Positions 8,196-63,815 of a stretch of 64,000 nt of DNA are shown one piece after another (positions within the stretch are counted from its first letter, which is position 1; every line of letters starts with the position of its first letter). The stretch spans positions 186,001-250,000 of the forward strand of contig NZ_JAHCTB010000004.1 of assembly GCF_018476645.1 (NCBI RefSeq), given 5' to 3'. This DNA comes from Aequorivita echinoideorum (GTDB lineage: Bacteria > Bacteroidota > Bacteroidia > Flavobacteriales > Flavobacteriaceae). A program made the position numbers and the translations under genes. The notes under the pieces were generated by a model. That model ran no database searches. It was given only the letters and a program-made list of their open reading frames with translations, and was not told the DNA's origin.

Positions 8196-8876
8196 ATGAA
8201 AATTACATTTTACGGCCAGAATTGCCTGGGTATTGAATTGAAAGGAATCAATCTATTGGTGGACCCATTCATCACTGGGAACGATCTCGCAAAGGATAAA
8301 ATAAACATAAAGGATTTAAAGGCAGATTACATCTTACTCACGCACGCGCACCAGGACCATACGCTGGATGCGGAGGAAATTGCCAAGAATACGGGCGCTA
8401 CCATCATCAGCAATTATGAAATTTCCAATCATTACGAGGACAAAGGTTTTACCGTACACCCTATGAACCACGGTGGAAGCAAGAAATTTGACTTCGGAAA
8501 GTTAAAGTACGTGAACGCAATCCACACCAGTTCTTTTCCGGATGGAAGCTACGGCGGGCAACCTGGCGGTTTTGTTTTGGAAGGGGAGCGCAAGAATATT
8601 TACATTGCTGGGGACACAGCGCTGACGATGGATATGAAATTGATCCCGATGCAAACAAAGTTGGATTTGGCAATTTTGCCGATTGGCGACAATTTTACAA
8701 TGGGTATTGATGATGCCATTACCGCCAGCGATTTCGTGGAATGCGATAAAGTATTGGGCGTGCATTATGACACCTTTGGTTATATTGAAATAGACCATGA
8801 AGAAGCAAAGCGAAAATTCTACGATGCCGGCAAAGATTTGATGTTGCTGGAAATTGGGGAAAGTATAGAATTATAG
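8196..8876 (+). CDS. UPF0173-type metal-dependent hydrolase (metallo-beta-lactamase fold)
   Basis: A 226-residue MBL-fold protein. The zinc motif LTHAHQDHTLD (about residues 48-58) is followed by NHGG, a second His region (IHTSSFPDGSYGGQPGG), YIAGDT with its metal Asp, and GVHYDTFGYI near the C-terminus. The substrate is unknown in the UPF0173 family. It lies 13 bp after menA in a menaquinone cluster that shows no DHNA-CoA thioesterase. MBL-fold enzymes such as glyoxalase II hydrolyse thioesters, so that role is possible here but only inferred. Its stop codon (8874-8876) lies inside the octamer array that opens the four-helix element. Confidence 0.85.
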   Translation: MKITFYGQNCLGIELKGINLLVDPFITGNDLAKDKINIKDLKADYILLTHAHQDHTLDAEEIAKNTGATIISNYEISNHYEDKGFTVHPMNHGGSKKFDFGKLKYVNAIHTSSFPDGSYGGQPGGFVLEGERKNIYIAGDTALTMDMKLIPMQTKLDLAILPIGDNFTMGIDDAITASDFVECDKVLGVHYDTFGYIEIDHEEAKRKFYDAGKDLMLLEIGESIEL

Positions 8877-8922
8877 ATTATTGGATTGCTAGATTGCTAG
8901 GTTGTTGGATTTTTGGATAATT
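8867..8922 (+). repeat. Octamer array, left border of the four-helix element
   Basis: Seven units of 8 bases in one register: agaattat, agattatt, ggattgct, agattgct, aggttgtt, ggattttt, ggataatt. The first two units contain the end and stop codon of the upstream hydrolase gene. The segment 8904-8918 is a perfect 15-base inverted repeat of 9285-9299 on the far side of the gene. Confidence 0.8.
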
Positions 8923-8926
8923 TGAA

Positions 8927-9277
8927 ATGCACAGGTTTAAGGATTTAGAAATTTGGAAACAGAGTAGGGCATTTTGTAAAGATATTTATGAAATCACTTC
9001 AGTATTTCTGGAAGCTGAAAAGTTTGGGTTGATTTCCCAATTAAGAAGAGCCAGTGTTTCGGTTCCATCGAATATTGCCGAAGGTGCGTCGCAAAATTCC
9101 AATAAGGATTTTGGAAGATTTTTAGAAATAGCGATAGGTTCTTGTTACGAAATTGAGACACAGTTACTCATAGCAAATGATTTGGGATTTATAAAGGGAG
9201 AAAGTTTGAATCCAGTACTTTTAAAATTAGAAGCCATAATCAAAATGACCTCAAAATTTAAATCAACCTTAAAATAA
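8927..9277 (+). CDS. Four-helix bundle protein (23S rRNA IVS / Avd-like family)
   Basis: A 116-residue protein with the family signature: MHRFKDLEIWKQSRAFCKDIY, then QLRRASVSVPSNIAEGASQ (about residues 38-56) and a C-terminal helix pair (EIETQLLIANDLGFI). Relatives are encoded in intervening sequences of bacterial 23S rRNA genes and include the Avd accessory protein of diversity-generating retroelements; many bacteria have stand-alone copies of unknown function. Its size is normal and the frame is intact. It is out of place inside a menaquinone cluster and is bracketed by inverted octamer arrays, with its own stop codon (9275-9277) inside the right array. No reverse transcriptase or variable repeat is present, so this is not a DGR. 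Confidence 0.9.
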   Translation: MHRFKDLEIWKQSRAFCKDIYEITSVFLEAEKFGLISQLRRASVSVPSNIAEGASQNSNKDFGRFLEIAIGSCYEIETQLLIANDLGFIKGESLNPVLLKLEAIIKMTSKFKSTLK

Positions 9278-9304
9278 TCCAAAAATCCAAAAATCCAACC
9301 ACCA
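9273..9304 (-). repeat. Octamer array, right border of the four-helix element
   Basis: Four units of 8 bases (aataatcc, aaaaatcc, aaaaatcc, aaccacca); read on the minus strand the unit is ggattttt, as in the left border. The array holds the four-helix gene's stop codon and ends 3 bases before the menC TTG start. Confidence 0.8.
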
Positions 9305-9307
9305 AAA

Positions 9308-10357
9308 TTGACTGCAACTTTCCAAAAATACATCCTCAACTTCAAACGTCCCAGCGGTACTTCGCGGGGAATAATGAATAGTAAGGAAACTTATTTTATT
9401 ATTCTTCGCAATGAGGAAAAATTTGGTATTGGCGAATGCGGAATTTTACGCGGACTAAGCATTGACGATCGTCCAGATTATGAAGAAAAACTGAAATGGA
9501 CCTGCGAGAATATTTCTTTAGGCGAAGAAAAGTTATATGAAAGCTTAGTTGAATTTCCATCCATCCAATTTGGAATTGAAACCGCATTAAAATCTTTGCA
9601 ATCAAAAAACCCGTTTGAATTATTTCCTTCGGAATTTACGCGAGGCAAAATCCCCATTTCCATAAACGGATTGGTCTGGATGGGAGACAAAGTTTTTATG
9701 AAGCAACAGATTTCAGAAAAATTGAAAGAAGGTTTCAGCTGCATAAAAATGAAAATTGGCGCCATAGATTTTAAAACTGAAATAGAATTGCTGAAATCCA
9801 TTCGAAAGGAATTTTCAGCTTCAGAAATTGAATTGCGTGTAGATGCAAACGGTGCATTTTCAAAAAATGAGGCATTGGAAAAATTGAAAATTCTTTCAGA
9901 TTTAAAGTTGCATTCCATTGAGCAACCCATAAAACCGGGCCAATGGCAGGAAATGGCCCTTCTTTGTGAAGATTCGCCATTACCAATCGCATTGGACGAG
10001 GAATTGATTGGAATTTTTTCAGAAGTTGAAAGAGAAAAATTATGCAGCACCATACACCCTCAATATATCATTTTAAAACCTTCATTAATTGGCGGTCTTC
10101 GCGGAAGCGATAGTTGGATTTCGTTGGTTGATAAGAACAAAGCAGGCTGGTGGATTACTTCAGCCCTGGAAAGCAACATTGGCTTAAATGCCATTTCGCA
10201 GTATTCATTTACAAAAAACACTACCTTGCCCCAAGGTTTGGGAACAGGGAGTTTGTACACAAATAACCTTGAAAGTCCGCTGGAAGTTTCCAATGGAAAA
10301 TTAAAATATAATCCCAATAAAAAATGGATCCTCGACGCGTTGGGATTTAGTTATTAA
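9308..10357 (+). CDS. menC: o-Succinylbenzoate synthase
   Basis: A 349-residue enolase-superfamily enzyme that dehydrates SHCHC to o-succinylbenzoate in menaquinone synthesis. Visible motifs are CIKMKIGA (catalytic Lys in K-x-K, about residues 137-144), ELRVDANGAF (metal Asp), SIEQPIK (metal Glu), LDEELI and the C-terminal TSALESNIG. The N-terminus YILNFKRPSGTSRG is conserved in flavobacterial MenC and can only be reached from the TTG at 9308, as no upstream ATG is in frame. That TTG sits directly after the octamer array, so insertion of the four-helix element may have replaced the original start region. CPBP and menE follow at short spacing. Confidence 0.92.
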   Translation: MTATFQKYILNFKRPSGTSRGIMNSKETYFIILRNEEKFGIGECGILRGLSIDDRPDYEEKLKWTCENISLGEEKLYESLVEFPSIQFGIETALKSLQSKNPFELFPSEFTRGKIPISINGLVWMGDKVFMKQQISEKLKEGFSCIKMKIGAIDFKTEIELLKSIRKEFSASEIELRVDANGAFSKNEALEKLKILSDLKLHSIEQPIKPGQWQEMALLCEDSPLPIALDEELIGIFSEVEREKLCSTIHPQYIILKPSLIGGLRGSDSWISLVDKNKAGWWITSALESNIGLNAISQYSFTKNTTLPQGLGTGSLYTNNLESPLEVSNGKLKYNPNKKWILDALGFSY

Positions 10358-10374
10358 AATTTTATTTTACAGAT

Positions 10375-11325
10375 ATGTTTATAGAACAGGCATTTAAATT
10401 TCTGCACGAATGGTGGCGGTATTTGGTAGGATTAATCATAATTTTTGTGGCTACCCAAGTTGGCTCCATACCTTTGCTAATAGGCGTTTTTATGAAAATA
10501 TATAACGATGGTGGCGATATTATGGGCATTGATGATCCAAATGTTTTAATGACGGCTTTGGACGCCAACCTCACCTTGTTTTTGATGCTTTTGAGTTTTG
10601 CCATAGGATTATTTGCGCTCTATTTGGTAGTTAAATATTTGCACAGACAACCTTTTGAAACGCTCACAACAAGCAGAAATAAAACCGACTGGGGTCGCGT
10701 GTTTTTTGCATTTGGACTTATAACCATTACCACGGTTGTACTCACAGTTTTGGATTATATGAGCAATCCAGAAGATTATGTGTTTCAATTTCAAGCGGTT
10801 CCATTTATAATTTTGGCTGTAATCTCGTTATTGATGATTCCGTTGCAGACCAGTTTTGAGGAATATCTTTTCCGTGGTTATCTTATGCAGGGAATTGGGG
10901 TATTGGCTAAAAACCGTTGGTTGCCTTTGTTGATAACTTCCGTGATCTTCGGAGGATTGCATCTTGCGAACCCTGAGGTGGAAAAATTGGGCAATATTAT
11001 TATGGTATATTACATTGGTACCGGTTTTTTCTTGGGCATTATGACGCTTATGGATGAAGGGATGGAACTGGCACTTGGCTTTCACGCGGGCAATAATTTA
11101 ATTACTGCCGTGCTCGTTACCGCAGACTGGACCGTTTTCAAAACACCGTCCATTTTGAAGGATATTTCTGAACCCTCGGCGGGATTTGACGTGCTGGCCC
11201 CGGTATTGATTCTATATCCTATCTTTTTGGCAATAATGGCTTGGCGCTACAAATGGAAAAATTGGGGCCAAAAACTTTTTGGAAAGGTAGAAGAACCACT
11301 TGCGCTGAAAGGCGAGCATTTGTAA
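10375..11325 (+). CDS. CPBP-family intramembrane metalloprotease (Rce1/Abi-like)
   Basis: A 316-residue membrane protein with about eight hydrophobic segments and the motifs of glutamate intramembrane proteases: FEEYLFRGY (Glu162, Glu163, Arg167), FGGLHLANPE (His196) and HAGNN (about 239-243). Family knowledge: eukaryotic Rce1 trims prenylated proteins, while most bacterial members have unknown substrates. It lies between menC (17 bp upstream) and menE (10 bp downstream), so it is probably translated from the men transcript. Why a protease travels with menaquinone genes is not known. Confidence 0.88.
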   Translation: MFIEQAFKFLHEWWRYLVGLIIIFVATQVGSIPLLIGVFMKIYNDGGDIMGIDDPNVLMTALDANLTLFLMLLSFAIGLFALYLVVKYLHRQPFETLTTSRNKTDWGRVFFAFGLITITTVVLTVLDYMSNPEDYVFQFQAVPFIILAVISLLMIPLQTSFEEYLFRGYLMQGIGVLAKNRWLPLLITSVIFGGLHLANPEVEKLGNIIMVYYIGTGFFLGIMTLMDEGMELALGFHAGNNLITAVLVTADWTVFKTPSILKDISEPSAGFDVLAPVLILYPIFLAIMAWRYKWKNWGQKLFGKVEEPLALKGEHL

Positions 11326-11335
11326 ATTCAAAACT

Positions 11336-12397
11336 TTGCAACATCTTCGCCATAAAAATTTTAGATTAAACGGAAATGCATTCGCATCCGCGGAAGAATT
11401 AATCGGTTTTGCTGAAAAACTACAATTCTCCAAACAAGAATTTGAAATTGCCATAGGAAAATTTATTGCGGAATGGCTTTCTGAAGAATCATATATTCTT
11501 GTGAAAACCTCTGGTTCCACGGGCATTCCGAAGCAGATAGAACTTCCGAAGAAAAACGTAGCCAACAGTGCCCGCGCCACAATTGGCTATTTCAATCTAT
11601 ATGAAAATACAACCGCACTGTTGTGCCTCCCCGCCGAATTTATTGCGGGCAAAATGATGCTGGTACGCGCCATGCTGGCCGGCTGGGATTTATATTCGGT
11701 TGAACCGGGAAGAGAACCATTAAAAAATCTAAATATTCATTTTGACTTCGCAGCGATGGTTCCCTATCAAGCTTTCCATTCGCTCTCCCATTTGAAAAAA
11801 ATAAAAAAAATGATTGTAGGGGGTGGCGCGGTCCCAAAAAGTCTTGAAGCAAGTTTTCAAAAAGTCCCGACCCGTATTTTCGCCACGTATGGAATGACCG
11901 AAACTATCAGCCATATCGCCATCAGACCAATTAATGGTCCTGAAAAATCAATGGTGTATGCCGCCTTGCCCAAAGTTAAATTCAGTTTGGATTCACGCGA
12001 TTGCCTTCAAATTATAGCTCCAGAAATTAATGAACAAACCGTTGTGACCAACGATGTAGTAGAACTTATTTCGGACACTTCTTTTAAATTTTTGGGAAGA
12101 ATTGACAATGTGATAAACTCTGGTGGCATTAAGATTTTCCCTGAAGCGGTGGAGGAGAAGCTATCAGATTATATAATTTTTCCTTTTTTTATTGCTTCAG
12201 AAAAAGATGTAGCACTGGGAGAGCGAATAATTTTAGTCGTGGAATCTGAAAATGAGGATACGGATTATTCCGAAGTGTTCAAAATACTTTCCGCGTACGA
12301 AAAACCAAAGAAAATCTACACAATAAAAAACTTCGTCTATACTGAAACGGGAAAAGTGAAACGTGCGGAAACATTAGGGTCTATTTTAAATTCGTAA
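11336..12397 (+). CDS. menE: o-Succinylbenzoate-CoA ligase, short form
   Basis: A 353-residue acyl-AMP-forming ligase that activates o-succinylbenzoate to its CoA ester. Motifs: P-loop KTSGSTGIPKQ (about residues 57-67), ATYGMTETISH (about 183-193, with YGMTE), LGRIDNVINSGGIKIFPEAVEE (hinge and A8 region) and TGKVKRAE near the end with the catalytic Lys. It is shorter than Gram-positive MenE, mainly because the N-terminal subdomain is reduced. The start is taken as TTG 11336, since no in-frame ATG precedes the P-loop; this is the weakest part of the call. It closes the men run and is convergent with the SRPBCC gene. Confidence 0.88.
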   Translation: MQHLRHKNFRLNGNAFASAEELIGFAEKLQFSKQEFEIAIGKFIAEWLSEESYILVKTSGSTGIPKQIELPKKNVANSARATIGYFNLYENTTALLCLPAEFIAGKMMLVRAMLAGWDLYSVEPGREPLKNLNIHFDFAAMVPYQAFHSLSHLKKIKKMIVGGGAVPKSLEASFQKVPTRIFATYGMTETISHIAIRPINGPEKSMVYAALPKVKFSLDSRDCLQIIAPEINEQTVVTNDVVELISDTSFKFLGRIDNVINSGGIKIFPEAVEEKLSDYIIFPFFIASEKDVALGERIILVVESENEDTDYSEVFKILSAYEKPKKIYTIKNFVYTETGKVKRAETLGSILNS

Positions 12398-12405
12398 AAA
12401 TTATT

Positions 12406-12855: not shown

Positions 12856-12891
12856 TACAATATATTTCTCACACAAAAAAATCCGATTTTC

Positions 12892-12931
12892 AACTATCCA
12901 AAAATCCAATAATCTAAAAATCAAATTTCCT
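12892..12931 (-). repeat. Octamer array between lipoprotein and SRPBCC genes
   Basis: Five units of 8 bases (aactatcc, aaaaatcc, aataatct, aaaaatca, aatttcct), the same family as the arrays around the four-helix gene. The stop codon of the lipoprotein gene (12914-12916) lies inside the array. Confidence 0.7.
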
Positions 12932-13330
12932 AAATTTTGAATAGGTGTAAATTTTATTATCCCTGTTTTTTACTTTAAGTAAGCTATCTTTTGCTTCAAT
13001 AACCGTTTCTTTCCAACTATCAAAAGGAGTTTTGTAATAAAGCCGAAGGCTGTCATCCTCGATTTTCAGGATAAATTTTTCTGAAGCGCCATTGGTCACA
13101 AAACTGCCATCAATTTTTGGCGAAACCTTGGTGCGCGTGCCACTATCGCCTTTCATTTCCATAAAATCAATGACGGTATTAATTTTAAATTCCTTCTTTT
13201 TTCCATCCGGCATTTGTACCGTTTTTATCTCCCAGTATCCATTGAGCTTGTTTTTTTGCACTTCGGGATTCGGTTTTGAACAGCTTGTTGCTAAAATTGT
13301 AATAGCGAAAATGGTGACGAAATAGTTCAT
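12914..13330 (-). CDS. Small lipoprotein, lipocalin-like fold likely
   Basis: A 138-residue protein with a lipoprotein signal (lipobox LATSC, Cys17). It continues KLNGYWEIKTVQMPDGKKKEF, resembling the first strand of small lipocalin-like (beta-barrel) lipoproteins, with repeated strand-like segments FILKIEDDSLRLYY and TVIEAKDSLLKVK. It is probably exported and lipid-anchored; the ligand is unknown. It lies 8 bp downstream of recF on the same strand. The last residues and stop are provided by the octamer array, so the original C-terminus may have been different. Confidence 0.7.
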   Translation of the reverse strand: MNYFVTIFAITILATSCSKPNPEVQKNKLNGYWEIKTVQMPDGKKKEFKINTVIDFMEMKGDSGTRTKVSPKIDGSFVTNGASEKFILKIEDDSLRLYYKTPFDSWKETVIEAKDSLLKVKNRDNKIYTYSKFRKFDF

Positions 13331-13338
13331 AATTTTAA

Positions 13339-14418: not shown

Positions 14419-14528
14419 ATAAATGAGGTAATTGTATTTCAGAATAAATCCCAAACAGGAAAGAATACAACGCTGCAAATTATTGAAAAATAAGAAATAT
14501 TTATCCTTTTAAATTCCATTAAAAATTT

Positions 14529-14536: not shown

Positions 14537-14556
14537 CGCCACAATAAACTAAAATT

Positions 14557-15822: not shown

Positions 15823-15896
15823 AAAACCGATTTCCGATAATTGATTTACTTTTATAGTCATCGTATAGATATGCGATCATCTCTTTTCTGAATTTA

Positions 15897-15924
15897 TTCA
15901 TAATTCAATATTCACCATTCATTT
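15897..15924 (+). repeat. Heptamer array downstream of ribH
   Basis: Four units of 7 bases of the form ttcannn (ttcataa, ttcaata, ttcacca, ttcattt). Just after the ribH stop, at 15825-15845, a weaker 7-base register (accgatt, tccgata, attgatt) is visible. The rest of the 195-base spacer shows no gene. Confidence 0.55.
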
Positions 15925-29304: not shown

Positions 29305-29844
29305 ATGAGCCAAAAAGTGTTATTGAACGCAACCGAAATAAACATTGCGCTTAACCGTTTGGCCTGCCAATTAATAGAAAATCACCATAATTTTTCGGAG
29401 ACCGTACTTGTGGGCATTCAACCGCGGGGTGTTTTTTTGGCAGAAAGATTAAAATCGCTGCTTGAAACCGAATATAAAATCAAGGATATAAAACTTGGGT
29501 ATTTGGACATCACGTTTTTTAGGGATGATTTTAGGCGAAGTGAAAAACCGCTTGAGGCAAACAAAACCAGAATCGATTTTATTGTAGAGAATAAAAAAGT
29601 AGTCTTTATAGATGATGTGCTATTTACCGGAAGAAGCATCCGCTCGGCATTGACTGCCATTCAATCTTTTGGGAGACCGCTGGAAATTGAACTCTTGACC
29701 TTAATAGACCGCCGTTTCAGTCGGCATTTGCCTATACAGCCCGATTATCGTGGAAGGCAAGTGGATGCCATAAACGGAGAAAAGGTAAAGGTTTGCTGGA
29801 AAGAAAATGACGGCGAAGATGCTGTTTATTTGGTTAAGAGTTAA
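29305..29844 (+). CDS. pyrR: Phosphoribosyltransferase-family pyrimidine regulator PyrR
   Basis: A 179-residue type I phosphoribosyltransferase of PyrR length. The PRPP loop is VVFIDDVLFTGRSIRSAL (about residues 98-115), and GIQPRGVFLAERL near the N-terminus matches the PyrR/uracil phosphoribosyltransferase fold. PyrR proteins sense UMP/UTP and can also make UMP from uracil; whether RNA binding is kept in this phylum is uncertain. It is followed by pyrB, joined by a spacer made of 7-base units. Its last two codons and stop (AAG AGT TAA) lie in the first units of that array. Confidence 0.92.
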   Translation: MSQKVLLNATEINIALNRLACQLIENHHNFSETVLVGIQPRGVFLAERLKSLLETEYKIKDIKLGYLDITFFRDDFRRSEKPLEANKTRIDFIVENKKVVFIDDVLFTGRSIRSALTAIQSFGRPLEIELLTLIDRRFSRHLPIQPDYRGRQVDAINGEKVKVCWKENDGEDAVYLVKS

Positions 29845-29944
29845 GATTTATGAATCAAGAATTATTTTTTGCCAACAGCCAACAGCCAACAGCCAACAAC
29901 CGATAACCAATAACAGACAACCGATAACCGACAACTGAATACTA
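29833..29944 (+). repeat. Heptamer array filling the pyrR-pyrB junction
   Basis: Sixteen consecutive 7-base units run in one register across the whole junction. They start as gttaaga x2, drift through tttatga, atcaaga and attattt, become acagcca x3, then alternate acaaccg, ataacca, ataacag, acaaccg, ataaccg, acaactg. The pyrR stop (29842-29844) is inside unit two and the pyrB ATG comes 5 bases after the last unit. There is no spacer-repeat alternation, so it is not a CRISPR array. Confidence 0.85.
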
Positions 29945-29948
29945 AAAA

Positions 29949-30884
29949 ATGGAACTAAGTGTAAAACACTTATTGGGAATAAAATATATAACCGAAGCCG
30001 ATATCCAACTCATCTTCGAAACGGCAGACCATTTCAAGGAAGTTATCAATAGGCCCATAAAAAAAGTGCCTTCACTGCGAGATATAACCATTGCCAATCT
30101 TTTCTTTGAAAATAGTACCCGTACAAAACTTTCCTTTGAGCTCGCCGAGAAAAGGCTTTCGGCAGATGTTATCAATTTTGCTTCATCGAGTTCCTCTGTG
30201 ACCAAAGGTGAAACCTTAATCGATACCGTAAATAACATTCTCTCGATGAAAGTAGATATGGTCGTGATGCGCCATCCCAATCCCGGTGCAGGCGTATTTC
30301 TTTCAAAACATATCAATGCAAGTATCGTAAATGCCGGTGATGGTGCGCACGAGCATCCCACGCAGGCTTTATTGGATTGCTATTCCATTCGGGAAAAATT
30401 GGGCGATGTAGCTGGCAAAAAAATAGTGATTGTGGGAGATATTCTACATTCAAGAGTTGCTCTTTCCAATATATTTGCGCTTCAAAAACTTGGAGCTTCC
30501 GTAAAAGTGTGCGGTCCAAAAACATTGATTCCCAAATATATAGAAGAATTTGGTGTAGGTTTTGAACCAAATCTAAAAAAAGCCCTGGAATGGTGTGATG
30601 TTGCAAATATGTTGCGTGTGCAAAACGAACGGATGGATATAAGCTATTTTCCAACTACACGCGAATACACACAGCAATTTGGGCTGAATAAAAAATTGCT
30701 GGATTCGCTTGGGAAAGAAATTCTTATTATGCATCCGGGTCCTATCAATCGCGGGGTAGAAATTACAAGTGATGTGGCAGACAGTAAGCAATCGATTATA
30801 TTGGAACAAGTTCAAAACGGGGTTGCGGTACGTATGGCGGTAATCTATTTATTGGCTTCAAAAATAAAACACGATGAAAATTAA
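29949..30884 (+). CDS. pyrB: Aspartate carbamoyltransferase catalytic subunit
   Basis: A 311-residue ATCase that joins carbamoyl phosphate and aspartate in UMP synthesis. Motifs: FFENSTRTKLSFELAEKRL (carbamoyl-phosphate loop, S-T-R-T), VMRHPNPGAG, NAGDGAHEHPTQALLDCYSI (the HPTQ motif) and MHPGPINRGVEI (the PGP loop). No pyrI regulatory subunit is seen nearby. The start ATG at 29949 comes just after the heptamer array. Its end overlaps the next gene by 11 bases. Confidence 0.96.
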   Translation: MELSVKHLLGIKYITEADIQLIFETADHFKEVINRPIKKVPSLRDITIANLFFENSTRTKLSFELAEKRLSADVINFASSSSSVTKGETLIDTVNNILSMKVDMVVMRHPNPGAGVFLSKHINASIVNAGDGAHEHPTQALLDCYSIREKLGDVAGKKIVIVGDILHSRVALSNIFALQKLGASVKVCGPKTLIPKYIEEFGVGFEPNLKKALEWCDVANMLRVQNERMDISYFPTTREYTQQFGLNKKLLDSLGKEILIMHPGPINRGVEITSDVADSKQSIILEQVQNGVAVRMAVIYLLASKIKHDEN

Positions 30885-31230: not shown

Positions 31231-31318
31231 AATAATGAATATTGAACACAACTGCAAAATTCTAAATTTTTAAACCCTAAACCCTAAACCCTAAACCTTA
31301 AACTTGAAACTTGAAACT
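31231..31318 (+). repeat. Heptamer array in the rnz leader, including the start codon
   Basis: Units of 7 bases run from 31256 (aaaattc, taaattt, ttaaacc, ctaaacc x3, ttaaact, tgaaact x2) and a weaker 7-base register (aataatg, aatattg, aacacaa) reaches back to 31231. The rnz TTG start (31311-31313) and codons 2-3 are inside the last units. The middle units are identical in sequence to a plant-type telomere repeat, which I regard as coincidence. Confidence 0.85.
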
Positions 31319-32228
31319 GACAATTTTAGGCTGCCATAGTGCCACCCCTACCGTTTCTGCCCACCCAACCGCACAGGTCTTGGAAATAAAGGGACATCTA
31401 TTTTTGATAGATTGTGGCGAGGGAACACAGGTTCAGTTACGAAAGTATAAAATTAAATTTTCGCGCATCAGGCGTATTTTTATCTCCCATTTACACGGCG
31501 ATCATTTTTTTGGACTCGTGGGATTGATTTCCACGTTTCGGCTTATGGGAAGAAATGCTGAGCTTCACGTTTACGGTCCCAAAGGGATTAAAGAGGCCAT
31601 TTTGCTTTTTCTAAAATTGGGGAAATCATATACCAATTATCCCTTATATTTTCACGAACTCGACACCACTATTCCCGAGCTCATTTTTGAGGACGACAAG
31701 GTTTCGGTGGAGACTATTCCTTTGGAGCACAGGGTTTATACCAACGGATTTTTGTTTCGGGAAAAACCTGCGGATCGCACGCTCAACGTTGATGCTGCAA
31801 GGGCTGCAAATGTTGATTTAAGCTATTACAATAAAATAAAGCAAGGTTTTGATGTTGAAAACAAGGAAGGAAAAATAATTCCGAATAAGGAAATCACCTT
31901 TGATCCACCAGCTCCAAAATCGTATGCTTACTGCAGTGATACCGCATATCATCCACAAATGGTTGACCAGGTTACAGAGGTGGATGTTATGTATCATGAA
32001 TCCACTTTTCTGGAGGAACACCACCATTTGGCTGAAAAAACTAAGCATAGCACCGCAAAGGAAGCAGCTGCAATTGCCAAAAAGGCGAAAATAAAAACAC
32101 TCATTTTAGGGCATTATTCAGGGAGGTATGGCAATTTGGAATTTTTCAGGAATGAAGCTCAGGAAGTTTTTTTGGGCAAAATTGAATTGGCAGAAGATGG
32201 AAAGCGTTTTGATTTTTCAAAAAAATGA
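31311..32228 (+). CDS. rnz: Ribonuclease Z
   Basis: A 305-residue metallo-beta-lactamase enzyme that trims tRNA 3-prime ends. Motifs: GCHSATPT (about residues 7-14), IDCGEGTQVQLRKYKI (the family-specific GEGTQ), ISHLHGDHFFGL (zinc H-x-H-x-D-H, about 58-69), YCSDTAYHP and LILGHYSGRY. All metal ligands are present. The TTG at 31311 is taken as start because MKLTILGCHSATPT is the family N-terminus; it lies inside the heptamer array. Confidence 0.94.
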   Translation: MKLTILGCHSATPTVSAHPTAQVLEIKGHLFLIDCGEGTQVQLRKYKIKFSRIRRIFISHLHGDHFFGLVGLISTFRLMGRNAELHVYGPKGIKEAILLFLKLGKSYTNYPLYFHELDTTIPELIFEDDKVSVETIPLEHRVYTNGFLFREKPADRTLNVDAARAANVDLSYYNKIKQGFDVENKEGKIIPNKEITFDPPAPKSYAYCSDTAYHPQMVDQVTEVDVMYHESTFLEEHHHLAEKTKHSTAKEAAAIAKKAKIKTLILGHYSGRYGNLEFFRNEAQEVFLGKIELAEDGKRFDFSKK

Positions 32229-35645: not shown

Positions 35646-36560
35646 TTGTTGAATATTGAAAAATATGGAGCGGTAGATATTGGCAGTAACGCAATTAGGC
35701 TGCTTATTGCCACCGTTATTGAACAGGAGGGAAAGGATACGCACTTTAAAAAAACTTCGTTGGTGCGCGTACCCATCCGTTTGGGTGCAGATGTTTTCCT
35801 TGAAGGAAAAATTTCTGAAGCCAACGCTAAAAGAATGGTTGATGCCATGAAAGCATTTACCCTTTTAATGAAAACCCACGGAATAAAAAGGTTTAGGGCT
35901 TGTGCAACATCTGCTATGAGGGAAGCGCAAAATGGAGCCGAAATAGCTAAATTGATTAAAAAGGAAACCGGACTGACCATTAATATTATAGATGGTAATG
36001 ATGAAGCCAATATAATAGCTTCTACAGATTTAAAGAGCTTAATTCAAGATGATAAGGTTTTTTTATATGTTGATGTGGGTGGCGGAAGCACCGAATTTAC
36101 AGTTTTCGCAAATGGAAAAACCGTGGCTTCCCGAAGTTTCAAATTAGGAACCGTCCGTCTTCTCGAAGGGCAAGTAGAGGACAGTATGTGGCAGGATGTT
36201 GAAGATTGGATAAAAAAGGAGACCAAAAGCTACCCCAAGGTTTCTATGATAGGGAGCGGCGGTAACATTAATAGTATTTACAAAAGCAGTGGCAAGAAAA
36301 TAGGAAAACCATTGAGCTACTTTTACCTATCCAGTTATTACGAATACCTAAAATCATTCTCCTACGAAGAACGTATTTTTGAGCTTGATATGAATCCAGA
36401 TAGGGCAGATGTAGTAGTTCCAGCAACACGAATTTATCTGTCGGCAATGAAGTGGAGCAAAGCCAAGAATGTATATGTTCCAAAAATTGGTTTAAGTGAC
36501 GGAATTATAAAAAGCCTTTATAATGAAAAAGTTGCGGAGGAAATCACTGTTGACAATTAG
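35646..36560 (+). CDS. ppx: Ppx/GppA-family exopolyphosphatase
   Basis: A 304-residue short Ppx/GppA phosphatase (no C-terminal HD domain). Motifs: GAVDIGSNAIRLLI (phosphate 1 loop, about residues 8-21), ACATSAMREAQNG, IDGNDEANIIAS, YVDVGGGSTEFTVF and GSGGNINSIYKSSG. It can hydrolyse polyphosphate or pppGpp; which is not decidable. The start is a TTG at 35646 (or 35649), directly after the ppk1 stop, as there is no ATG before the first motif. The stop codon is inside a heptamer array. Confidence 0.9.
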   Translation: MLNIEKYGAVDIGSNAIRLLIATVIEQEGKDTHFKKTSLVRVPIRLGADVFLEGKISEANAKRMVDAMKAFTLLMKTHGIKRFRACATSAMREAQNGAEIAKLIKKETGLTINIIDGNDEANIIASTDLKSLIQDDKVFLYVDVGGGSTEFTVFANGKTVASRSFKLGTVRLLEGQVEDSMWQDVEDWIKKETKSYPKVSMIGSGGNINSIYKSSGKKIGKPLSYFYLSSYYEYLKSFSYEERIFELDMNPDRADVVVPATRIYLSAMKWSKAKNVYVPKIGLSDGIIKSLYNEKVAEEITVDN

Positions 36561-36579
36561 CAATTAGCATTTAACGTTT
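36552..36579 (+). repeat. Heptamer array over the ppx stop codon
   Basis: Four 7-base units (gacaatt, agcaatt, agcattt, aacgttt). The ppx TAG (36558-36560) is formed across the border of the first two units, so the last residues of Ppx are array-encoded. Confidence 0.6.
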
Positions 36580-36635
36580 ATCTATTGAAGATAAATTTTG
36601 TAAAAATTTAAATTAGCTGCCTTTTATTATCAAAT

Positions 36636-44312: not shown

Positions 44313-44529
44313 TGAGTAATTTTATCATCTCTCTCTTGTAAATTGGTGTATTTTCAAGATTATGCCCACCCATAGGCACCGTTACAAAATTGACTTGTTC
44401 TTTTGGAAGGATCTCATTCAGTTTCACGCTATTTTCGTAGTTGACCACCTTGTCCTTCTTCCCGTGAAATATGATTACCGGGCATTTTACATCTTTAATA
44501 TATTCGTGAGTTGGGAATTCATATTTTAA
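44308..44529 (-). pseudogene. Decayed alpha/beta-hydrolase, C-terminal fragment
   Basis: From about 44529 the minus strand encodes LKYEFPTHEYIKDVKCPVII, then FHGKKDKVVNYENS and PMGGHNLEN, the C-terminal part of a serine alpha/beta-hydrolase with its Asp strand (GKKD) and catalytic His (GGHN). The nucleophile elbow and the first two thirds of the domain are absent. Upstream, the reading frame stays open to 44625, but this section is made of a heptamer array and sequence that overlaps the lipoprotein gene. The frame has a possible start at 44625 but cannot be an active hydrolase. A remnant left by a deletion is the simplest reading. Confidence 0.7.
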
Positions 44530-44563
44530 GTTTATAGTTTCAAGTTTCAAATTCGAATAATTC
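44529..44563 (-). repeat. Heptamer array at the hydrolase breakpoint
   Basis: Five 7-base units (plus strand agtttat, agtttca x2, aattcga, ataattc). On the minus strand the core is tgaaact x2, identical to units in the rnz leader array. It lies exactly where hydrolase similarity begins. Confidence 0.65.
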
Positions 44564-57643: not shown

Positions 57644-57731
57644 AATGGATATAGATTATTTATGAAAAGAATTTCTTAAAAAACAAAGAAGCTTGACTTT
57701 AGAATGCAATAGAAATTTTTAATTGTGCTAT

Positions 57732-59159: not shown

Positions 59160-59365
59160 AGTAAGTTATTGAGTTTTGTTTTTTTAAAAAAAGGGCGGCC
59201 AAAAAATAGGGAAAAGAGTATTTCCGCGATATCTTCTAACAGTGCAAATATGTGAACAAAAAAGTTTAAAAAAAAACTGGAGTTGGGTTGAATTTTTACT
59301 TTTTTTTCCGCATACTTCCCTTTTGCTAAAACTACAAAAAAAGAATTTCTTATAACCTAAAAATC

Positions 59366-59767
59366 GTGAAGAATACAGCTACAAATATAAGGGTTCGCTA
59401 TGGCGAAACAGATCAAATGGGCGTTGTGTATTATGGAAATTACGCCCAATATTTAGAACAGGGAAGGACCGAATGGCTTCGTGAATTGGGCTTTTCCTAT
59501 AAATGGATGGAGGCAAATAACGTCCATCTTCCCGTTGTACACCTTACTATAGATTATAAACAGCCCGCCTACTATGATGATGTTTTAACGGTGAAAACAA
59601 CATTGAAGCAAATGCCCACCGCAAAAATTGAATTCTATTACGAAATCTTTAATGAAGCTGGCCAACTTTTAATCACTGCCGAAACGGTTTTGGTATTCGT
59701 GAACAGCACCACCAAAAAATTGATGCGCGCCCCGGACTATTTGATGGAAAAATTAAAAGAGAAATAA
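59366..59767 (+). CDS. Hotdog-fold acyl-CoA thioesterase (YbgC/FadM type)
   Basis: A 133-residue 4HBT protein. The motif RYGETDQMGVVYYGNYAQYLEQGRTEWLRELG (residues 10-41) holds the catalytic Asp and the Tyr/Asn pair. Substrates in the family range from short acyl-CoAs to DHNA-CoA, and the menaquinone cluster in this window lacks an obvious DHNA-CoA thioesterase, so it is a candidate by function but not by position. The start is a GTG at 59366; there is no ATG ahead of the motif in this frame. It is divergent from dnaA. Confidence 0.88.
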   Translation: MKNTATNIRVRYGETDQMGVVYYGNYAQYLEQGRTEWLRELGFSYKWMEANNVHLPVVHLTIDYKQPAYYDDVLTVKTTLKQMPTAKIEFYYEIFNEAGQLLITAETVLVFVNSTTKKLMRAPDYLMEKLKEK

Positions 59768-59774
59768 GGCAAAA

Positions 59775-60392
59775 CTATTCCTCTTTCTTTTTTATGGAAA
59801 CTTTATAGGTTCCATCAAAAATTTGAAAAACCTTTTCGGCCTCCTTTTGCCTTACGGAGATTTCCATCTCGCAATCCAGCAGCATGGTTTGGGATTCCAT
59901 GGAAATATTCTCTTCCTTAATAATGCGCATTACGGTATTCATTTCTGGGTATTCAAATTTCAAAATAAAATGTTCATCAATGGTCTTTTCAACAATTTTT
60001 GAAATTTCCAGCGTCAATTGTGCTGAGGTTTTATAAGCCTGTATCAATCCGCCCACACCTAGTTTTGTACCTCCAAAATAACGAACAACCACCACCAAAA
60101 TATTTGTAACATCAAAAGATTGCAATTGCCCATAAATTGGCATTCCAGCGCTATTGGATGGCTCACCGTCATCATTCGCCCTGTAGTTTTCGTATTTTTT
60201 TCCCAATTGCCAAGCATAACAAAAGTGGCGCGCGGTGTGGTGTTTCTTTTGAAGTTTTTCAATACAATGCTTTACATCCTCTTCAGAAAAAATAGGGAAC
60301 GCATACCCAAAAAACTTGCTTCCTTTTTCTTTAAAAAGCGTTTCTTTTGAAGGTTTTAAAATCGTTTTGTACGTATCCCTTTTTGTTGTCAA
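59775..60392 (-). CDS. YigZ/IMPACT-family protein
   Basis: A 205-residue protein with the UPF0029 N-terminal domain: KGSKFFGYAFPI, ARHFCYAWQLGKKYENYRANDDGEPSNSAGMPIYGQL (the family signature, about residues 54-90) and VVVVRYFGGTKLGVGGLIQAY. A C-terminal DUF1949-like ferredoxin fold follows. Related proteins affect translation or proteolysis control; the role in bacteria is not settled. It is the last gene of the minus-strand run ribD, DMT transporter, yigZ, and is convergent with the thioesterase gene. Confidence 0.9.
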   Translation of the reverse strand: MTTKRDTYKTILKPSKETLFKEKGSKFFGYAFPIFSEEDVKHCIEKLQKKHHTARHFCYAWQLGKKYENYRANDDGEPSNSAGMPIYGQLQSFDVTNILVVVVRYFGGTKLGVGGLIQAYKTSAQLTLEISKIVEKTIDEHFILKFEYPEMNTVMRIIKEENISMESQTMLLDCEMEISVRQKEAEKVFQIFDGTYKVSIKKKEE

Positions 60393-60427
60393 AATTTACT
60401 TTTAAATTTCAGATTAAATTTTATTCC

Positions 60428-61300
60428 TTAGTATTTTTCCGAAGCTATCAATACAATACCAATTACTGCGAGCACGATTCCCAACCAATTCTTAGGCAAT
60501 AATTTTTCCCTAAAAAGTAGAATTCCCAAAAATGTTGAGGTCAACACAATTGCTACGTTGTTGATAGTAAACACGCCGGAGCTTTCAAAAATGTTGCTGC
60601 GCAAGGCTTGCACCAGAAAATAGATTGAAAAATAATTGGGAATTCCCAAAAAAATCCCGCCCACTACGTTTTTGAATTCAAATTGGAATTTTCCCCGAAA
60701 AGCTTTAAAAATCAAAGTGACAATTCCAATAATCGCCGCGGCGAAGAATATGGTTGCCGAAAACAGCGGGGTGTCGTCCTTCGCCACAAATTCTCCTTCC
60801 AAAAATTTTATGGTCGTATCAATAATTCCGCTGCCCAAAAACACCAAAACCGGAAAAATTAAATTCTTGGGTTTTATTTTCAATCCCTCCTGTTTTTTGA
60901 TGGAAGCCAGATAAACGGCAATTAATGCAAGCAAAATCCCTAAGAATTTTAGAATCCCCAAGTGTTCTTTATAATATATCAATCCAAAGATTATAGGAAT
61001 TACAACACTCATTTTTGTTGCAACCGAGACAACCGAAAGTCCGCTACGCTGCGTAGTAATTGCCATCAACAAAAAAACGGTAATAAAAAGTACGCCTAAA
61101 ATGAGTGTGTACGGAAACCAAATATTTTGTGGGATTTCAACAACTCTGAAATCTGTTTGTTGAAAATAAAGTCCACAGCAGCAAGCCACTACATAATTTA
61201 TAACAATAGCTTGCAGGGTATTGATATTGAATTTTGGGTACAATTTGAAAACCACGAAAATGACCGTTGAAGCCAGAATGCTAAAAAGTAATGCCGTCAA
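60428..61300 (-). CDS. EamA/DMT-family membrane transporter
   Basis: A 290-residue protein with ten hydrophobic segments in two repeated halves, the EamA arrangement (second half: LLVFGS-like start IFPVLVFLGSGIIDTTIKF, ending LGIVLAVIGIVLIASEKY). Typical substrates are amino acids or other metabolites, but none can be named here. Its start overlaps the end of ribD by 4 bases (61297-61300), so translation is probably coupled; a link to riboflavin transport is tempting but unsupported. Confidence 0.82.
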   Translation of the reverse strand: MTALLFSILASTVIFVVFKLYPKFNINTLQAIVINYVVACCCGLYFQQTDFRVVEIPQNIWFPYTLILGVLFITVFLLMAITTQRSGLSVVSVATKMSVVIPIIFGLIYYKEHLGILKFLGILLALIAVYLASIKKQEGLKIKPKNLIFPVLVFLGSGIIDTTIKFLEGEFVAKDDTPLFSATIFFAAAIIGIVTLIFKAFRGKFQFEFKNVVGGIFLGIPNYFSIYFLVQALRSNIFESSGVFTINNVAIVLTSTFLGILLFREKLLPKNWLGIVLAVIGIVLIASEKY

Positions 61301-62346
61301 AATTTTTCTTTTTTGAAGGTTTGCAATCTATCATCCTTAATGATTTTTTCTGAAACCAAATATCCCGAGAAAGTTGGGGCCGTAACCCCTTCTGAAAAGG
61401 ATATGTTGCTTTTAAAAATCAGCGCTTCATCCCATAAACCTGCATCAATAAAAGTTTGAAGGATTTTTGCTCCACCTTCAACAATAAGCGATTGAATTTT
61501 TCGCTTATGCAAAACATTACAGATTTGCTTTGCTATATTTTCTGAAAAATCGATTTCTATAAATTCAATATTTTCTTTTTTAGGGTGATTGTTTTCAGAA
61601 AAAACAAGTGTTTGCACACTTCCATCCAAAACCGAATAATTTTCGGGAATTTTCAAATTTTTATCTATTATAATCCGCACAGGATTTTCACCTTGCCAAT
61701 GCCGCACCGTCAACGAAGGATTGTCCTGCATAACCGTGCTTGTGCCCACGAGAATGGACATTTCCTCGCTTCGTAATTTATGGGCAAGCTGTCGTGAAAA
61801 TTCATTTGTAATCCAAACCGGTTTTTTTTCTTTTCGATTTTCATTTTTGGGAGCGATAAAACCGTCCGCTGTTTCTGCCCATTTCAGAAAAATATACGGT
61901 CTTTTTTGTTGATGGAATGTGAAAAATCGCTTATTCAACTCATTGCATTCCTTTTCCAAGACGCCCACAATCACTTCGCAACCTGCATCAATCAATTTTT
62001 TGATACCGCGACCTGCTACCTGCGGATTTGGATCTGTACTGCCTATTACCACGTTCCGGATCCCTTTTTCAATAATCAAATCGGCGCAGGGCGGCGTTTT
62101 TCCAAAATGACTGCACGGTTCCAAGCTCACATATATGGTTGCTTGCTTCAAAAGGCCGGGATCTTTTACGCTCGCAATAGCATTGACTTCGGCGTGTGGC
62201 AAGCCGGATTTAAAGTGCCAGCCCTCGCCGATGATTTTATTTTGATTTATAATTACACTGCCCACCAATGGGTTAGGATAGGTGGTTCCAAGCCCATTTT
62301 TGGCCAATTGAATACAGCGCGCCATATATTTTTCGTGTATCTTCAC
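61297..62346 (-). CDS. ribD: Bifunctional riboflavin deaminase/reductase
   Basis: About 349 residues. The N-terminal deaminase domain has the zinc motifs PHAEVNAI and EPCSHFGKTPPCADLI; the C-terminal reductase domain includes FLKWAETADGFIAP, SILVGTSTVMQDNPSLTVR and LIVEGGAKIL. It carries out two steps between GTP cyclohydrolase II and ribityllumazine. The start is taken as GTG 62346 (KIHEKYMARCIQLAKNG); a TTG at 62361 and ATG at 62325 are alternatives. No FMN riboswitch fits in the 27-base divergent gap to the acetyltransferase gene. Confidence 0.92.
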   Translation of the reverse strand: MKIHEKYMARCIQLAKNGLGTTYPNPLVGSVIINQNKIIGEGWHFKSGLPHAEVNAIASVKDPGLLKQATIYVSLEPCSHFGKTPPCADLIIEKGIRNVVIGSTDPNPQVAGRGIKKLIDAGCEVIVGVLEKECNELNKRFFTFHQQKRPYIFLKWAETADGFIAPKNENRKEKKPVWITNEFSRQLAHKLRSEEMSILVGTSTVMQDNPSLTVRHWQGENPVRIIIDKNLKIPENYSVLDGSVQTLVFSENNHPKKENIEFIEIDFSENIAKQICNVLHKRKIQSLIVEGGAKILQTFIDAGLWDEALIFKSNISFSEGVTAPTFSGYLVSEKIIKDDRLQTFKKEKF

Positions 62347-62373
62347 AGCGTAAAAATACAAGGTTTTAGGAAA

Positions 62374-62859
62374 ATGGACACCCCAATAATTAGGCTAATT
62401 GAAGAGAAGGACAATGCACAAATTGCAAAAGTAATTCGTACAGTTTTAGAGGATTTCAACGTCCCGAAAGTAGGCACTGCCTATGCGGATAAATCTTTGG
62501 ACACAATGTTTGAAACATACCAAAAACCGAATTCCGTTTATTTTGTTGTTGAGGAAAACGGAAGGATAATTGGCGGTGCTGGCGTAGCAAAATTGGATAA
62601 TTATGAAGGGAATGTATGCGAACTCCAGAAAATGTATTTTTTGCCTGAAGCCAGAGGGAAGGGCATAGGCGCACAGATGATGGAATTCTGTATTGGAAAG
62701 GCACGCGAATTTAATTTTGAAAAAATATATTTGGAAACCATGGAATACATGACGCACGCCCAAAAACTGTATAAACAAGCAGGCTTTGAATATATTGATT
62801 GCGCACTGGGCGATACCGGCCATTATTCCTGCCCCGTGCATATGATCAGGGATCTTTAA
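62374..62859 (+). CDS. GNAT-family N-acetyltransferase
   Basis: A 161-residue GNAT protein starting at the ATG at 62374 (MDTPIIRLIEEKDNAQIAKVIR). The acetyl-CoA site is ELQKMYFLPEARGKGIGAQMMEFCI (R-G-K-G-I-G), followed by TMEYMTHAQKLYKQAGFEYID. The same frame is open far upstream through the antisense of ribD, but that part is not coding. Substrate unknown. It is followed by the array-filled spacer before prmC. Confidence 0.87.
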   Translation: MDTPIIRLIEEKDNAQIAKVIRTVLEDFNVPKVGTAYADKSLDTMFETYQKPNSVYFVVEENGRIIGGAGVAKLDNYEGNVCELQKMYFLPEARGKGIGAQMMEFCIGKAREFNFEKIYLETMEYMTHAQKLYKQAGFEYIDCALGDTGHYSCPVHMIRDL

Positions 62860-62865
62860 ATCCCC

Positions 62866-62954
62866 CAAATTCCAAATTTTAAACCTCAAGTTAAGATAAT
62901 AGCATCCACAGCATCCACAGCATCAATAGTAACAACAGCATCCATAGCATCAAA
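62866..62954 (+). repeat. Heptamer then nonamer arrays upstream of prmC
   Basis: Heptamer units (caaattc, caaattt, taaacct, caagtta, agataat) at 62866-62900 pass directly into six 9-base units at 62901-62954 (agcatccac x2, agcatcaat, agtaacaac, agcatccat, agcatcaaa). The prmC TTG start follows 3 bases later. Almost the whole spacer is therefore periodic. Confidence 0.82.
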
Positions 62955-62957
62955 AAC

Positions 62958-63815
62958 TTGAATTTATCAGCTCTTAAAAACCATTTTAAAAAAGCTCTTT
63001 CAGAAATATATCCTTCGGAAGAAGTACAATCTTTTTTTAATATTCTTTCTGAAAAATATCTGAATCTCTCCCGAATCGAAATCGCCTTAAATCCTGAAAA
63101 GGAAATTAATGCTGAGGATTTTCAAAAATTCAATTTGGCAATGCTTCGGCTGAAAAACCACGAACCTATACAATACATAGTAGGCGAAACCGAATTTTAC
63201 GGACTTCCCTTCAATTTGAACAAGCATACCTTAATCCCTCGTCCCGAAACCGAGGAGCTGGTCGAGTGGATTTTAAATCAATTCAACAATCAACAATCAA
63301 CAATCAGCAATCAACAATTGCTTGATATAGGAACGGGCAGCGGCTGTATTGCAATTTCGCTTGCAAAGAATCTTCAAAATGTAAAAGTTTCTGCAATGGA
63401 TATTTCAAAAGAAGCTTTAAAAATGGCGGGGATGAATGCTGAAATCAATAATGTTGAAATCAATTTTTTTGAAGCTGATATTTTAAAAACGCACACGCTT
63501 CCAGCTAAATATGATGTTATCGTCTCCAATCCGCCTTACGTTCGCAATAAGGAAAAAACCCAAATGCAACCCAATGTTTTAAGGTACGAACCGGGCGGTG
63601 CACTGTTTGTTTCAAATGAAGACCCGCTTATTTTTTATCGCGCAATAGCAACAATTTCAAAAAAACATCTTAAAACCAACGGCAAACTTTTCTTTGAAAT
63701 AAATGAATTTTTAGCTGAGGAAATGTGCGGGCTAATAACGGATTTGGGTTTTATCGATATAAAAATTAAAAAAGATATATTTGGAAAAAACCGAATGCTC
63801 GCCTGCAAATTATGA
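62958..63815 (+). CDS. prmC: Release factor glutamine methyltransferase
   Basis: A 285-residue enzyme that methylates the GGQ glutamine of release factors RF1 and RF2. The N-terminal helical domain leads to YGLPFNLNKHTLIPRPETEELVEW, SAM motif I LDIGTGSGCIAI (122-133) and the catalytic NPPY (191-194). Between Trp104 and motif I is a Gln/Asn/Ser-rich run (about residues 107-121) encoded by a heptamer array. The start is TTG 62958, just after a nonamer array; no in-frame ATG precedes the conserved region. The stop overlaps the next ATG (ATGA at 63812). Confidence 0.93.
   Translation: MNLSALKNHFKKALSEIYPSEEVQSFFNILSEKYLNLSRIEIALNPEKEINAEDFQKFNLAMLRLKNHEPIQYIVGETEFYGLPFNLNKHTLIPRPETEELVEWILNQFNNQQSTISNQQLLDIGTGSGCIAISLAKNLQNVKVSAMDISKEALKMAGMNAEINNVEINFFEADILKTHTLPAKYDVIVSNPPYVRNKEKTQMQPNVLRYEPGGALFVSNEDPLIFYRAIATISKKHLKTNGKLFFEINEFLAEEMCGLITDLGFIDIKIKKDIFGKNRMLACKL
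63278..63319 (+). repeat. In-frame heptamer array inside prmC
   Basis: Six 7-base units (tcaattc, aacaatc x3, agcaatc, aacaatt) occupy exactly 42 bases, that is 14 codons, in the linker before SAM motif I. Change by one or two units would shift the reading frame; change by three would keep it. Confidence 0.85.

Follow-up and report, generated by a model that had tools for sequence, protein, structure and literature searches.

Our combined findings suggest that the short tandem arrays lying around gene borders in the 64,000-nucleotide stretch of Aequorivita echinoideorum DNA analysed here (the window) are degenerate heptameric repeats, which probably arise by replication slippage with a preferred seven-base step, are homogenised in place and are then sieved by selection at start codons and within coding frames. 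Heptameric repeats as such are already known, while the diversity of the units and their replacement at fixed addresses appear to be new.

A first-pass annotation had listed ten places in the window as arrays of period 7, 8 or 9. We evaluated them by ungapped self-comparison, with the number of segments of equal score per 64 kb in 40 dinucleotide shuffles as the chance expectation. Six of the ten are secure on this measure, with scores at lags 7–9 for which 0.00 segments are expected per 64 kb, and four are weak. The secure arrays are all on the forward strand (gene names here are from Pfam). A period-8 array of GATTGCTA/GGATTTTT-like units (8861-8918; score 17.5) spans the stop codon of a metallo-beta-lactamase-fold gene (8196-8876) and occupies most of the 50-bp spacer upstream of a 23S rRNA IVP-family gene (8927-9277). 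The stop of this second gene is spanned by a period-8 array of AATCCAAA (9273-9298), upstream of an enolase-superfamily gene. A drifting period-7 array that passes from GCCAACA to AACCGAT (29871-29946) stops 2 nt short of the start, at 29949, of an aspartate/ornithine carbamoyltransferase-family gene, presumably of the pyrB type. Another period-7 array, passing from TAAACCC to AAACTTG (31271-31318), contains the TTG start codon (31311) of a tRNase Z-like gene (31311-32228). A period-9 array of AGCATCCAC (62901-62951) lies in the spacer between the end of a GNAT open reading frame (62859) and the start of prmC (62958), and a period-7 array of AACAATC (63283-63318) lies within the prmC reading frame (62958-63815). 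The described placement at gene ends and starts thus holds for the first five, which lie between genes and reach, or come close to, a stop or start codon, but not for the sixth.

Some of the listed intervals needed redrawing. The one given as 29833-29944 consists of the strong array from 29871 onwards and a weak forward-strand period-7 stretch of GTTAAGA (29833-29862; score 10.5) over the stop of a phosphoribosyltransferase gene (29305-29844), which we take to be of the pyrR type. Those given as 31231-31318 and 62866-62954 were too wide, the arrays proper beginning at 31271 and covering 62901-62951, respectively. The weak places comprise a reverse-strand period-8 array over the stop of a lipocalin-like gene (12896-12925, gene 12914-13330; 0.28 expected), a borderline forward-strand period-7 array of CAATTAG over the stop of a Ppx/GppA gene (36554-36580, gene 35646-36560; 0.20 expected), an unstranded period-7 stretch of AGTTTCA (44529-44553; 0.80 expected), and an unstranded period-7 array claimed 3' of the lumazine synthase gene (15896-15921), which we rejected as being at chance level (3.10 expected per 64 kb). 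That these four are at or close to chance level is what would speak for chance or assembly artefact as the origin of the arrays altogether, an origin that we judge extremely improbable, since shuffled sequence yields nearly none at array scores and congener genomes assembled as one contig, G016 and G017 among them, carry arrays too. For the strong arrays it is already refuted.

The genome-wide test proposed for lags 7, 8 and 9 was carried out on samples. In 864 kb of the window's genome, the window included (29% of 2.93 Mb), 31 noncoding arrays were found at lag 7, compared with 0.7 in shuffled spacers, 4 at lag 8 (0.3 shuffled) and 1 at lag 9 (0 shuffled), so that seven is the rule, and eight and nine are minor. 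The equal rank first given to the three periods was not upheld by 2,348,114 bp of non-overlapping genus DNA either, with 85 noncoding arrays at lag 7 versus 7 at lag 8 and 2 at lag 9. Other lags in this set gave 0 (lags 4 and 5), 2 (lag 6), 1 (lag 10), 8 (lag 11) and 22 (lag 14). Shuffled spacers held at most 0.7 arrays at any of lags 6–9, and 0.0 at lag 7 in the 2,348,114-bp set. Coding arrays at lag 7 numbered 7 versus the 85 noncoding ones, though noncoding DNA is only about 10% of the set. Array density across the genus samples ranged from roughly 11 to 88 per megabase. Final counts are free of overlaps, L142 and L148 having been removed and L144 and L146 shortened, and L167 was excluded from positional tests because it holds a larger satellite; the earlier tallies of units, spacer-type densities, 42 leaders and AAC/AAT core, given below, include overlapping stretches or orthologs.

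The step is fixed and its content drifts freely, as the first-pass annotation had proposed. There are 74 different leading units across the arrays (a few overlapping stretches being counted twice), and similarity between units declines with their distance along the array, identity decaying from 0.82 at lag 7 to 0.70 at lag 42 among the 31 arrays that are 49 bp or longer. In 33 of 72 drifting arrays, overlapping stretches and orthologs included, a core of AAC or AAT is retained, versus 10.8 expected. The unit list is too diverse for a fixed motif or a mobile element, and both were rejected. The arrays are not repeats of the fixed unit TAACTGA, of which the rotation AACTGAT leads 3 arrays. They are not quadruplex-forming heptamers with a G tract of at least three per unit, a CCC or GGG tract being seen by eye in 6 of the 74 leading units. 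Nor are they REP or palindromic elements, having no fixed sequence and a fold z-score of −2 or lower in 5 of 28 folded spacers.

Comparison of congener spacers revealed arrays at the same junction in other species, often with a different unit. Period-7 stretches (threshold 9, by eye) were found in 13 of 18 spacers at the pyrR-pyrB junction, 8 of 19 at the rnz junction and 7 of 19 at the sixA-like junction, with AACCTGA, AACCGAT, AACTGAT, AAATCGT, AAACCAG and others as units. Three of the 5 congeners without an array at pyrR-pyrB have spacers of 17–19 bp; such variation between species, from long periodic spacers to very short ones, agrees with the earlier view of the arrays as periodic filler. 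At three arrays, species differ by one whole unit. Between G023 and G012 this is true of an AACCTGA array (L201/L209) and a GGGTGCT array (L144/L146), and a GAAACCT array upstream of the pyrB-type gene is 41 bp long in L144 versus 34 bp in L146. The spacer upstream of this gene measures 120 bp in L139 versus 113 bp in L146. For the indel spectrum, loose gap costs proved noisy and were replaced by clean indels only. G023 and G012 are separated by four clean noncoding indels that are 5 nt or longer; three measure 7 nt and one 16, and both that duplicate a neighbour are of 7 nt. The three such indels between G010 and G017 (93% identical) are of 5, 10 and 14 nt, none being of 7.

The array at 63283-63318 corresponds approximately to residues 107–121 of the prmC product, in the linker that joins the PrmC N-terminal domain to the methyltransferase domain (Pfam), and borders are therefore not the sole location of arrays, as had been supposed. 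The linker sequence was retrieved from three of the 14 gene-bearing congeners and holds a heptad array in every case (two of AACAATC, one of AACTCAT). Judged by the length of the whole alignment, 10 of the 14 have a protein of unchanged net length, whereas the span is longer by 21 bases, or three heptads, in G002 and G009, shorter by as much in G007 and shorter by 9 in G003.

Borders are nonetheless favoured over random placement within the same spacer, on both the start and the stop side, in line with the original claim. Among 29 arrays in co-directional spacers of the window's genome and G016, 14 lie within 11 nt of a start and 15 within 11 nt of a stop, versus 8.5 by random placement in each case; in all non-overlapping data the numbers are 44 and 35 of 82, respectively, versus 28.2. 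Before removal of overlaps, the density per kb of spacer was 0.59 between co-directional, 0.50 between convergent and 0.24 between divergent genes. Start-side arrays are A+C-rich on the mRNA strand, with a mean of 0.77 versus 0.52 in 461 array-free leaders, and A+C exceeds 0.5 in 10 of 10 of them (29 of 30 in all data; 17 of 17 with orthologs removed). On the stop side, 4 of 12 arrays of the window's genome and G016 exceed 0.5, indicating polarity, but no such polarity was present in the pooled set (10 of 21).

Upstream of the start codon, adenine peaks at seven-base intervals in 42 leaders, and across all leaders, before ortholog removal, the phase lock to the start codon is strong. Together with the start-side location, the A+C-rich strand and the AAC/AAT core, these peaks are what would be expected if the arrays were a platform or leader for a protein that binds single-stranded RNA or DNA (ribosomal S1, a cold-shock protein or similar) and reads AAY every seven bases, the period being set by selection rather than mutation. 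S1, Csp or Csr binding was suggested for TAACTGA repeats (PMC4679880), and in six ortholog-reduced leaders of other genera the C phase is tight (R 0.98, p about 0.003, for one of four bases tested). We nevertheless consider such an element an unlikely explanation. Once orthologs were removed, the lock in the genus was weak (28 leaders; A phase R 0.33, p about 0.04; C, G and T not significant), and no A lock was seen in the six leaders of other genera (p about 0.8); the lock thus stems largely from common descent of the junctions. Arrays are also found at stops, in the spacers of convergent genes and inside coding sequence, and the 5 of 18 congeners without one at pyrR-pyrB argue in the same direction. 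Much less probable still is that stop-side and start-side arrays form complementary arms of a stem-loop acting as terminator or stabiliser. Folding covered 28 array spacers, with five longer ones left out, and the 5 low z-scores include strong ones (L177 5422-5521, z −6.5; L182 803-908, z −2.85), but z is above 0 in 15, and the window's own two spacers have values of 0.68 and −1.39. This excludes a hairpin or terminator as a general role, though it may hold for single spacers.

The first-pass annotation suggested end joining or break filling as the process that writes periodic filler at borders, which we regard as very improbable. The location of arrays at borders fits it, as does a median period-7 count of 59.5 in the 14 of 149 family genomes with Ku (PF02735) versus 8.0 in the 135 without (p 0.019, uncorrected for kinship). 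However, 23 Ku-negative genomes have counts of at least 50, and arrays keep their address from species to species, with differences of one unit. Moreover, the window's genome (G000) gave no match to Ku, the gene by which Ku/LigD end-joining scars would be recognised, yet has the highest period-7 pattern count of all 149, which is evidence against Ku-dependent end joining as the writer; for this genome it would be refuted if the 99.96%-complete assembly did not miss the gene. A Y-family polymerase is uninformative as a correlate, being present in 148 of 149 genomes. By the same pattern test, period-8 exceeds period-7 matches in 26 of the 149, nine of them with at least 10 period-8 matches. Family counts call for caution: 100-kb samples of G173, G044 and G155, of other genera, contained no noncoding lag-7 or lag-8 segments (two at lag 14 in G155) despite whole-genome period-7 counts of 240, 162 and 82, respectively, and a period-8 count of 139 in G155, so that part of these counts reflects clustered long arrays. 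A 100-kb sample of G117, from another genus, held 5 noncoding period-7 and 3 period-8 arrays.

In the slippage model that we favour, slipped-strand mispairing during replication or repair would add or remove units, with a strong preference for a seven-base step and almost irrespective of the letters. Single whole units do distinguish arrays between species. Recurrent gain and loss would homogenise an array, and the unit may in this way be replaced in concert at a long-lived address. Selection exerted by the neighbouring genes would decide which arrays survive, which could explain why spacers hold most of them, why they are scarcer between divergent genes and confined, within coding sequence, to tolerant linkers, and why start-adjacent arrays almost only have the A+C-rich strand as mRNA. 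Such a strand would avoid upstream AUG, GUG and UUG as well as structure, and would suit the Shine-Dalgarno-free initiation of the phylum. In F. johnsoniae, initiation is favoured by adenines and little structure ahead of the start codon, a region in which AUG is underrepresented (PMC6847099). Several findings stand against the model. It does not account for the exact preference for seven, as steps of 5, 6 or 8 would be expected too, and a sequence-blind process does not predict the AAC/AAT core. The lack of 7-nt indels between G010 and G017, the lead of period 8 in 26 family genomes and the loss of stop-side polarity on pooling count against it as well.

The first-pass annotation knew of no named mechanism, but slippage has been proposed for a class already in the literature, the heptanucleotide long simple sequence repeats (PMC4679880, PMC4692102). 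As cited there from Mrazek 2007, seven is the commonest unit length, and was related to the stretch touched by a slipping polymerase. The present arrays share that length and proposal, and are likewise head to tail, beyond chance and mostly noncoding (85 versus 7 at lag 7). Unlike that class as these papers present it, their units drift, and vary by address and by species at one address. TAACTGA direct repeats, described from Beggiatoaceae, some cyanobacteria and five Bacteroidetes including Aequorivita sublithincola, are similarly intergenic heptamers, often forward and directly upstream of a start codon. Gramella and Aequorivita spacers with them hold further heptamer repeats, and a close relative's spacer was shorter and lacked obvious repeats. 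That work follows one fixed unit, whereas here units of the TAACTGA type are one kind among many (PMC4679880). The GGGAATC and GGGGA(C/T)T repeats of Xanthomonas and Nostoc also lie between aligned genes and rarely between divergent ones, with the G-rich strand being antisense close to starts and sense close to or across stops, and mostly recur at the same gene pairs in two species, where their length and sequence vary; they are described as one G-rich, quadruplex-capable unit (PMC4692102), in contrast to the 74 leading units found here, 6 with CCC or GGG. Classic contingency microsatellites are also tandem and change by unit steps, but have units of 1–4 bases, as opposed to the longer, degenerate units here.

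It is conceivable, if rather doubtful, that long-lived addresses in Flavobacteriaceae keep only the seven-base step, the AAY core and their strand with respect to the start while all else is rewritten in concert. They would then amount to a leader element that is agnostic to sequence and defined by its period, upheld by a lineage-specific property that makes replication or repair slip by seven bases, or by eight in some genera. What sets the seven-base step is, in the papers cited here, so far a matter of proposal; the density of arrays in the genus, the species with differing units at one junction and the genera leaning to eight offer natural material on it, and on whether translation in bacteria that lack Shine-Dalgarno sequences is tuned by leaders of this kind. 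The comparison also gives a simple picture of how spacers grow.

The window (G000:C22:186001-250000) comes from a 2.93-Mb genome that is 99.96% complete. Judged by its tRNase Z-like protein, the closest named relatives are Altibacter and Aequorivita, and the genus is probably Aequorivita. The window was compared with itself without gaps at lags 2-40. Segments scoring at least 14 fell at lags 7, 8 and 9 or at multiples of these, with one further segment at lag 15; 30 shuffles of the window gave zero segments of this score at lags 7-9. The first-pass annotation had listed ten places carrying period-7, -8 or -9 arrays at gene borders. Six of them far exceed chance, whereas the other four are weak or no stronger than chance would give. 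One of the strong six, at 63283-63318, sits inside the prmC frame rather than at a border. The periodicity itself was borne out by autocorrelation over 864 kb of the same genome, in which noncoding DNA (arrays scoring at least 13, with shuffled spacers as controls) held 31 arrays at lag 7 versus 0.7 in shuffled spacers, 4 versus 0.3 at lag 8, and 1 versus 0 at lag 9. After pooling with congeners and removal of overlaps (2,348,114 bp, of which 238,091 noncoding), the noncoding arrays numbered 85 at lag 7, 7 at lag 8 and 2 at lag 9; lag 6 gave 2 and lag 14 gave 22. Coding DNA yielded seven segments at lag 7, five at lag 9, and five apiece at lags 12, 18, 21 and 27.

The units of these arrays are highly diverse, with 74 kinds of leading unit, and unit-to-unit identity drops slowly with distance along an array, from 0.82 to 0.70. 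Among drifting arrays, AAC or AAT (on either strand) was the best-kept triplet in 33 of 72, compared with 10.8 expected, a count that partly includes orthologs and overlaps. Composition of the mRNA strand varies with array position. Arrays beside the start of the downstream gene were A+C-rich in 10/10 cases in the window's genome and the comparison genome G016, in 29/30 across all non-overlapping data and in 17/17 after ortholog removal, compared with a mean A+C of 0.52-0.54 in array-free leaders. Arrays beside the upstream stop codon leaned towards T+G in the first two genomes (4 of 12 above 0.5 A+C), a lean absent from the pooled data (10 of 21).

The arrays also favor gene borders. Their density per kb of spacer was 0.59 in co-directional, 0.50 in convergent and 0.24 in divergent spacers, with overlapping stretches still included. 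Genes were called with a simple hexamer-based caller, so that individual start positions may be wrong, and random expectation refers to placement at random within the same spacer. In co-directional spacers of the window's genome and G016, 14 of 29 arrays ended at most 11 nt from the start of the downstream gene and 15 of 29 began at most 11 nt from the stop of the upstream one (8.5 at random for each); in all non-overlapping data the figures were 44 and 35 of 82, respectively, against 28.2 each. Within the window, whose protein families were assigned by Pfam, a PF05635 gene (23S rRNA intervening-sequence family; 8927-9277) lies amid protein-coding genes, flanked by two period-8 arrays.

The same junctions carry arrays of other units in other species. 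The gene names pyrR, pyrB, rnz, sixA and UPF0173 are putative labels, in part those of the first-pass annotation. At a low threshold of 9 and counted by eye, a period-7 stretch occurred in 13 of 18 congener pyrR-pyrB spacers, at the rnz junction in 8 of 19 congeners and at the sixA-like gene in 7 of 19. Five pyrR-pyrB spacers were without one, and three of these measured just 17-19 bp in the printed form that includes flanks; two Altibacter loci had no array at the pyrR-pyrB, rnz or sixA-like junctions. Units at these junctions vary from species to species, and the rnz-pdxH spacer has period 7 (GCACCCC) in two congeners and period 9 in two others. Three arrays differ by one whole unit between genome G012 and G023 or G018. 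In a 93%-identical pair no 7-base event was seen; the clean noncoding indels that reached 5 bases or more had lengths of 5, 10 and 14. A nine-base unit resembling GCATCCACA was observed at differing junctions of different species (window 62901-62951; fetched loci L139, 10967-11030, and L149, 9010-9040).

Heptad arrays were present in the prmC linker of all three congeners fetched, of 14 that have the gene; two carry the window's unit and one another unit. Measured over its whole aligned span, wherever the changes lie, prmC equals the length of the window's protein in 10 of the 14, differs in G002, G007 and G009 by three heptads (exactly 21 bases, two being longer and one shorter), and is 9 bases shorter in one further congener. 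This comparison makes the strongest case for an array remaining in place while its unit is replaced. Near this linker, at 63435-63473, prmC also contains two copies of a 15-base in-frame repeat.

Heptads were also observed within larger structures. In L167 (G000:C21:40001-60000), about four copies of a satellite with ~190-base units span 7139-8128, and these units are themselves composed of heptads (CCAACAG, CATTCAA). In locus L177, two complementary heptad arms of a single spacer, at 5422-5521, pair into a long hairpin with a fold z of -6.5.

We surveyed 149 family genomes for AAC occurring four times at seven-base intervals, a pattern that leaves the rest of the unit free. Overlapping positions were counted, and clustered arrays account for the counts of some genomes. 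Matches occurred in 128 genomes (median 9), and the window's genome had the top count (337). The eight-base equivalent matched in 111 (median 2; 3 in the window's genome); period-7 matches outnumbered period-8 matches in 104 genomes, with the reverse in 26 and equality in 19. Ku was present in 14 of the 149 and was not found in the window's genome. The median period-7 count was 59.5 in Ku-positive and 8.0 in Ku-negative genomes (p 0.019, with neither kinship nor the testing of two families corrected for). In a genome of another genus, period-8 arrays (AACCCAAT, AACTTTAT) cluster in one region (G155:C1:246508-258935). Short scattered period-8 sites of the AACNNNTCAAC/AACNNTTAAAC form, seen in G170, G161, G078, G100 and others, are more suggestive of a shared dispersed motif than of long arrays.

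Slippage with a seven-base step is the most likely maker of these arrays, through which units would be gained and lost. Repeated slippage events may homogenize each array and so replace its unit, and neighboring genes would filter the arrays. Mismatch repair misses loops longer than about four bases, which may go some way to explaining the rarity here of units of 1-4 bases; such escape is no account of the rarity of units of 5 and 6. The A+C bias at starts is probably caused by translation initiation, which is consistent with ribosome profiling in F. johnsoniae, where upstream adenines and low structure promote initiation and the region around the start is depleted of AUG (PMC6847099).

PMC4679880 and PMC4692102, which refer to Mrazek 2007, report an excess of heptamers in bacteria and a proposal that slippage causes it, along with the idea that the polymerase touches a stretch of seven bases. 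The G-rich heptamers of Xanthomonas and Nostoc share the border polarity of the arrays here (PMC4692102), and TAACTGA and other heptamer repeats are mentioned for Aequorivita sublithincola (PMC4679880). By title and abstract start, in a search that covered few subscription papers, we found no treatment of sequence-diverse heptad arrays in Flavobacteriaceae, and we thus take these arrays to be a new form of the known heptamer repeats.
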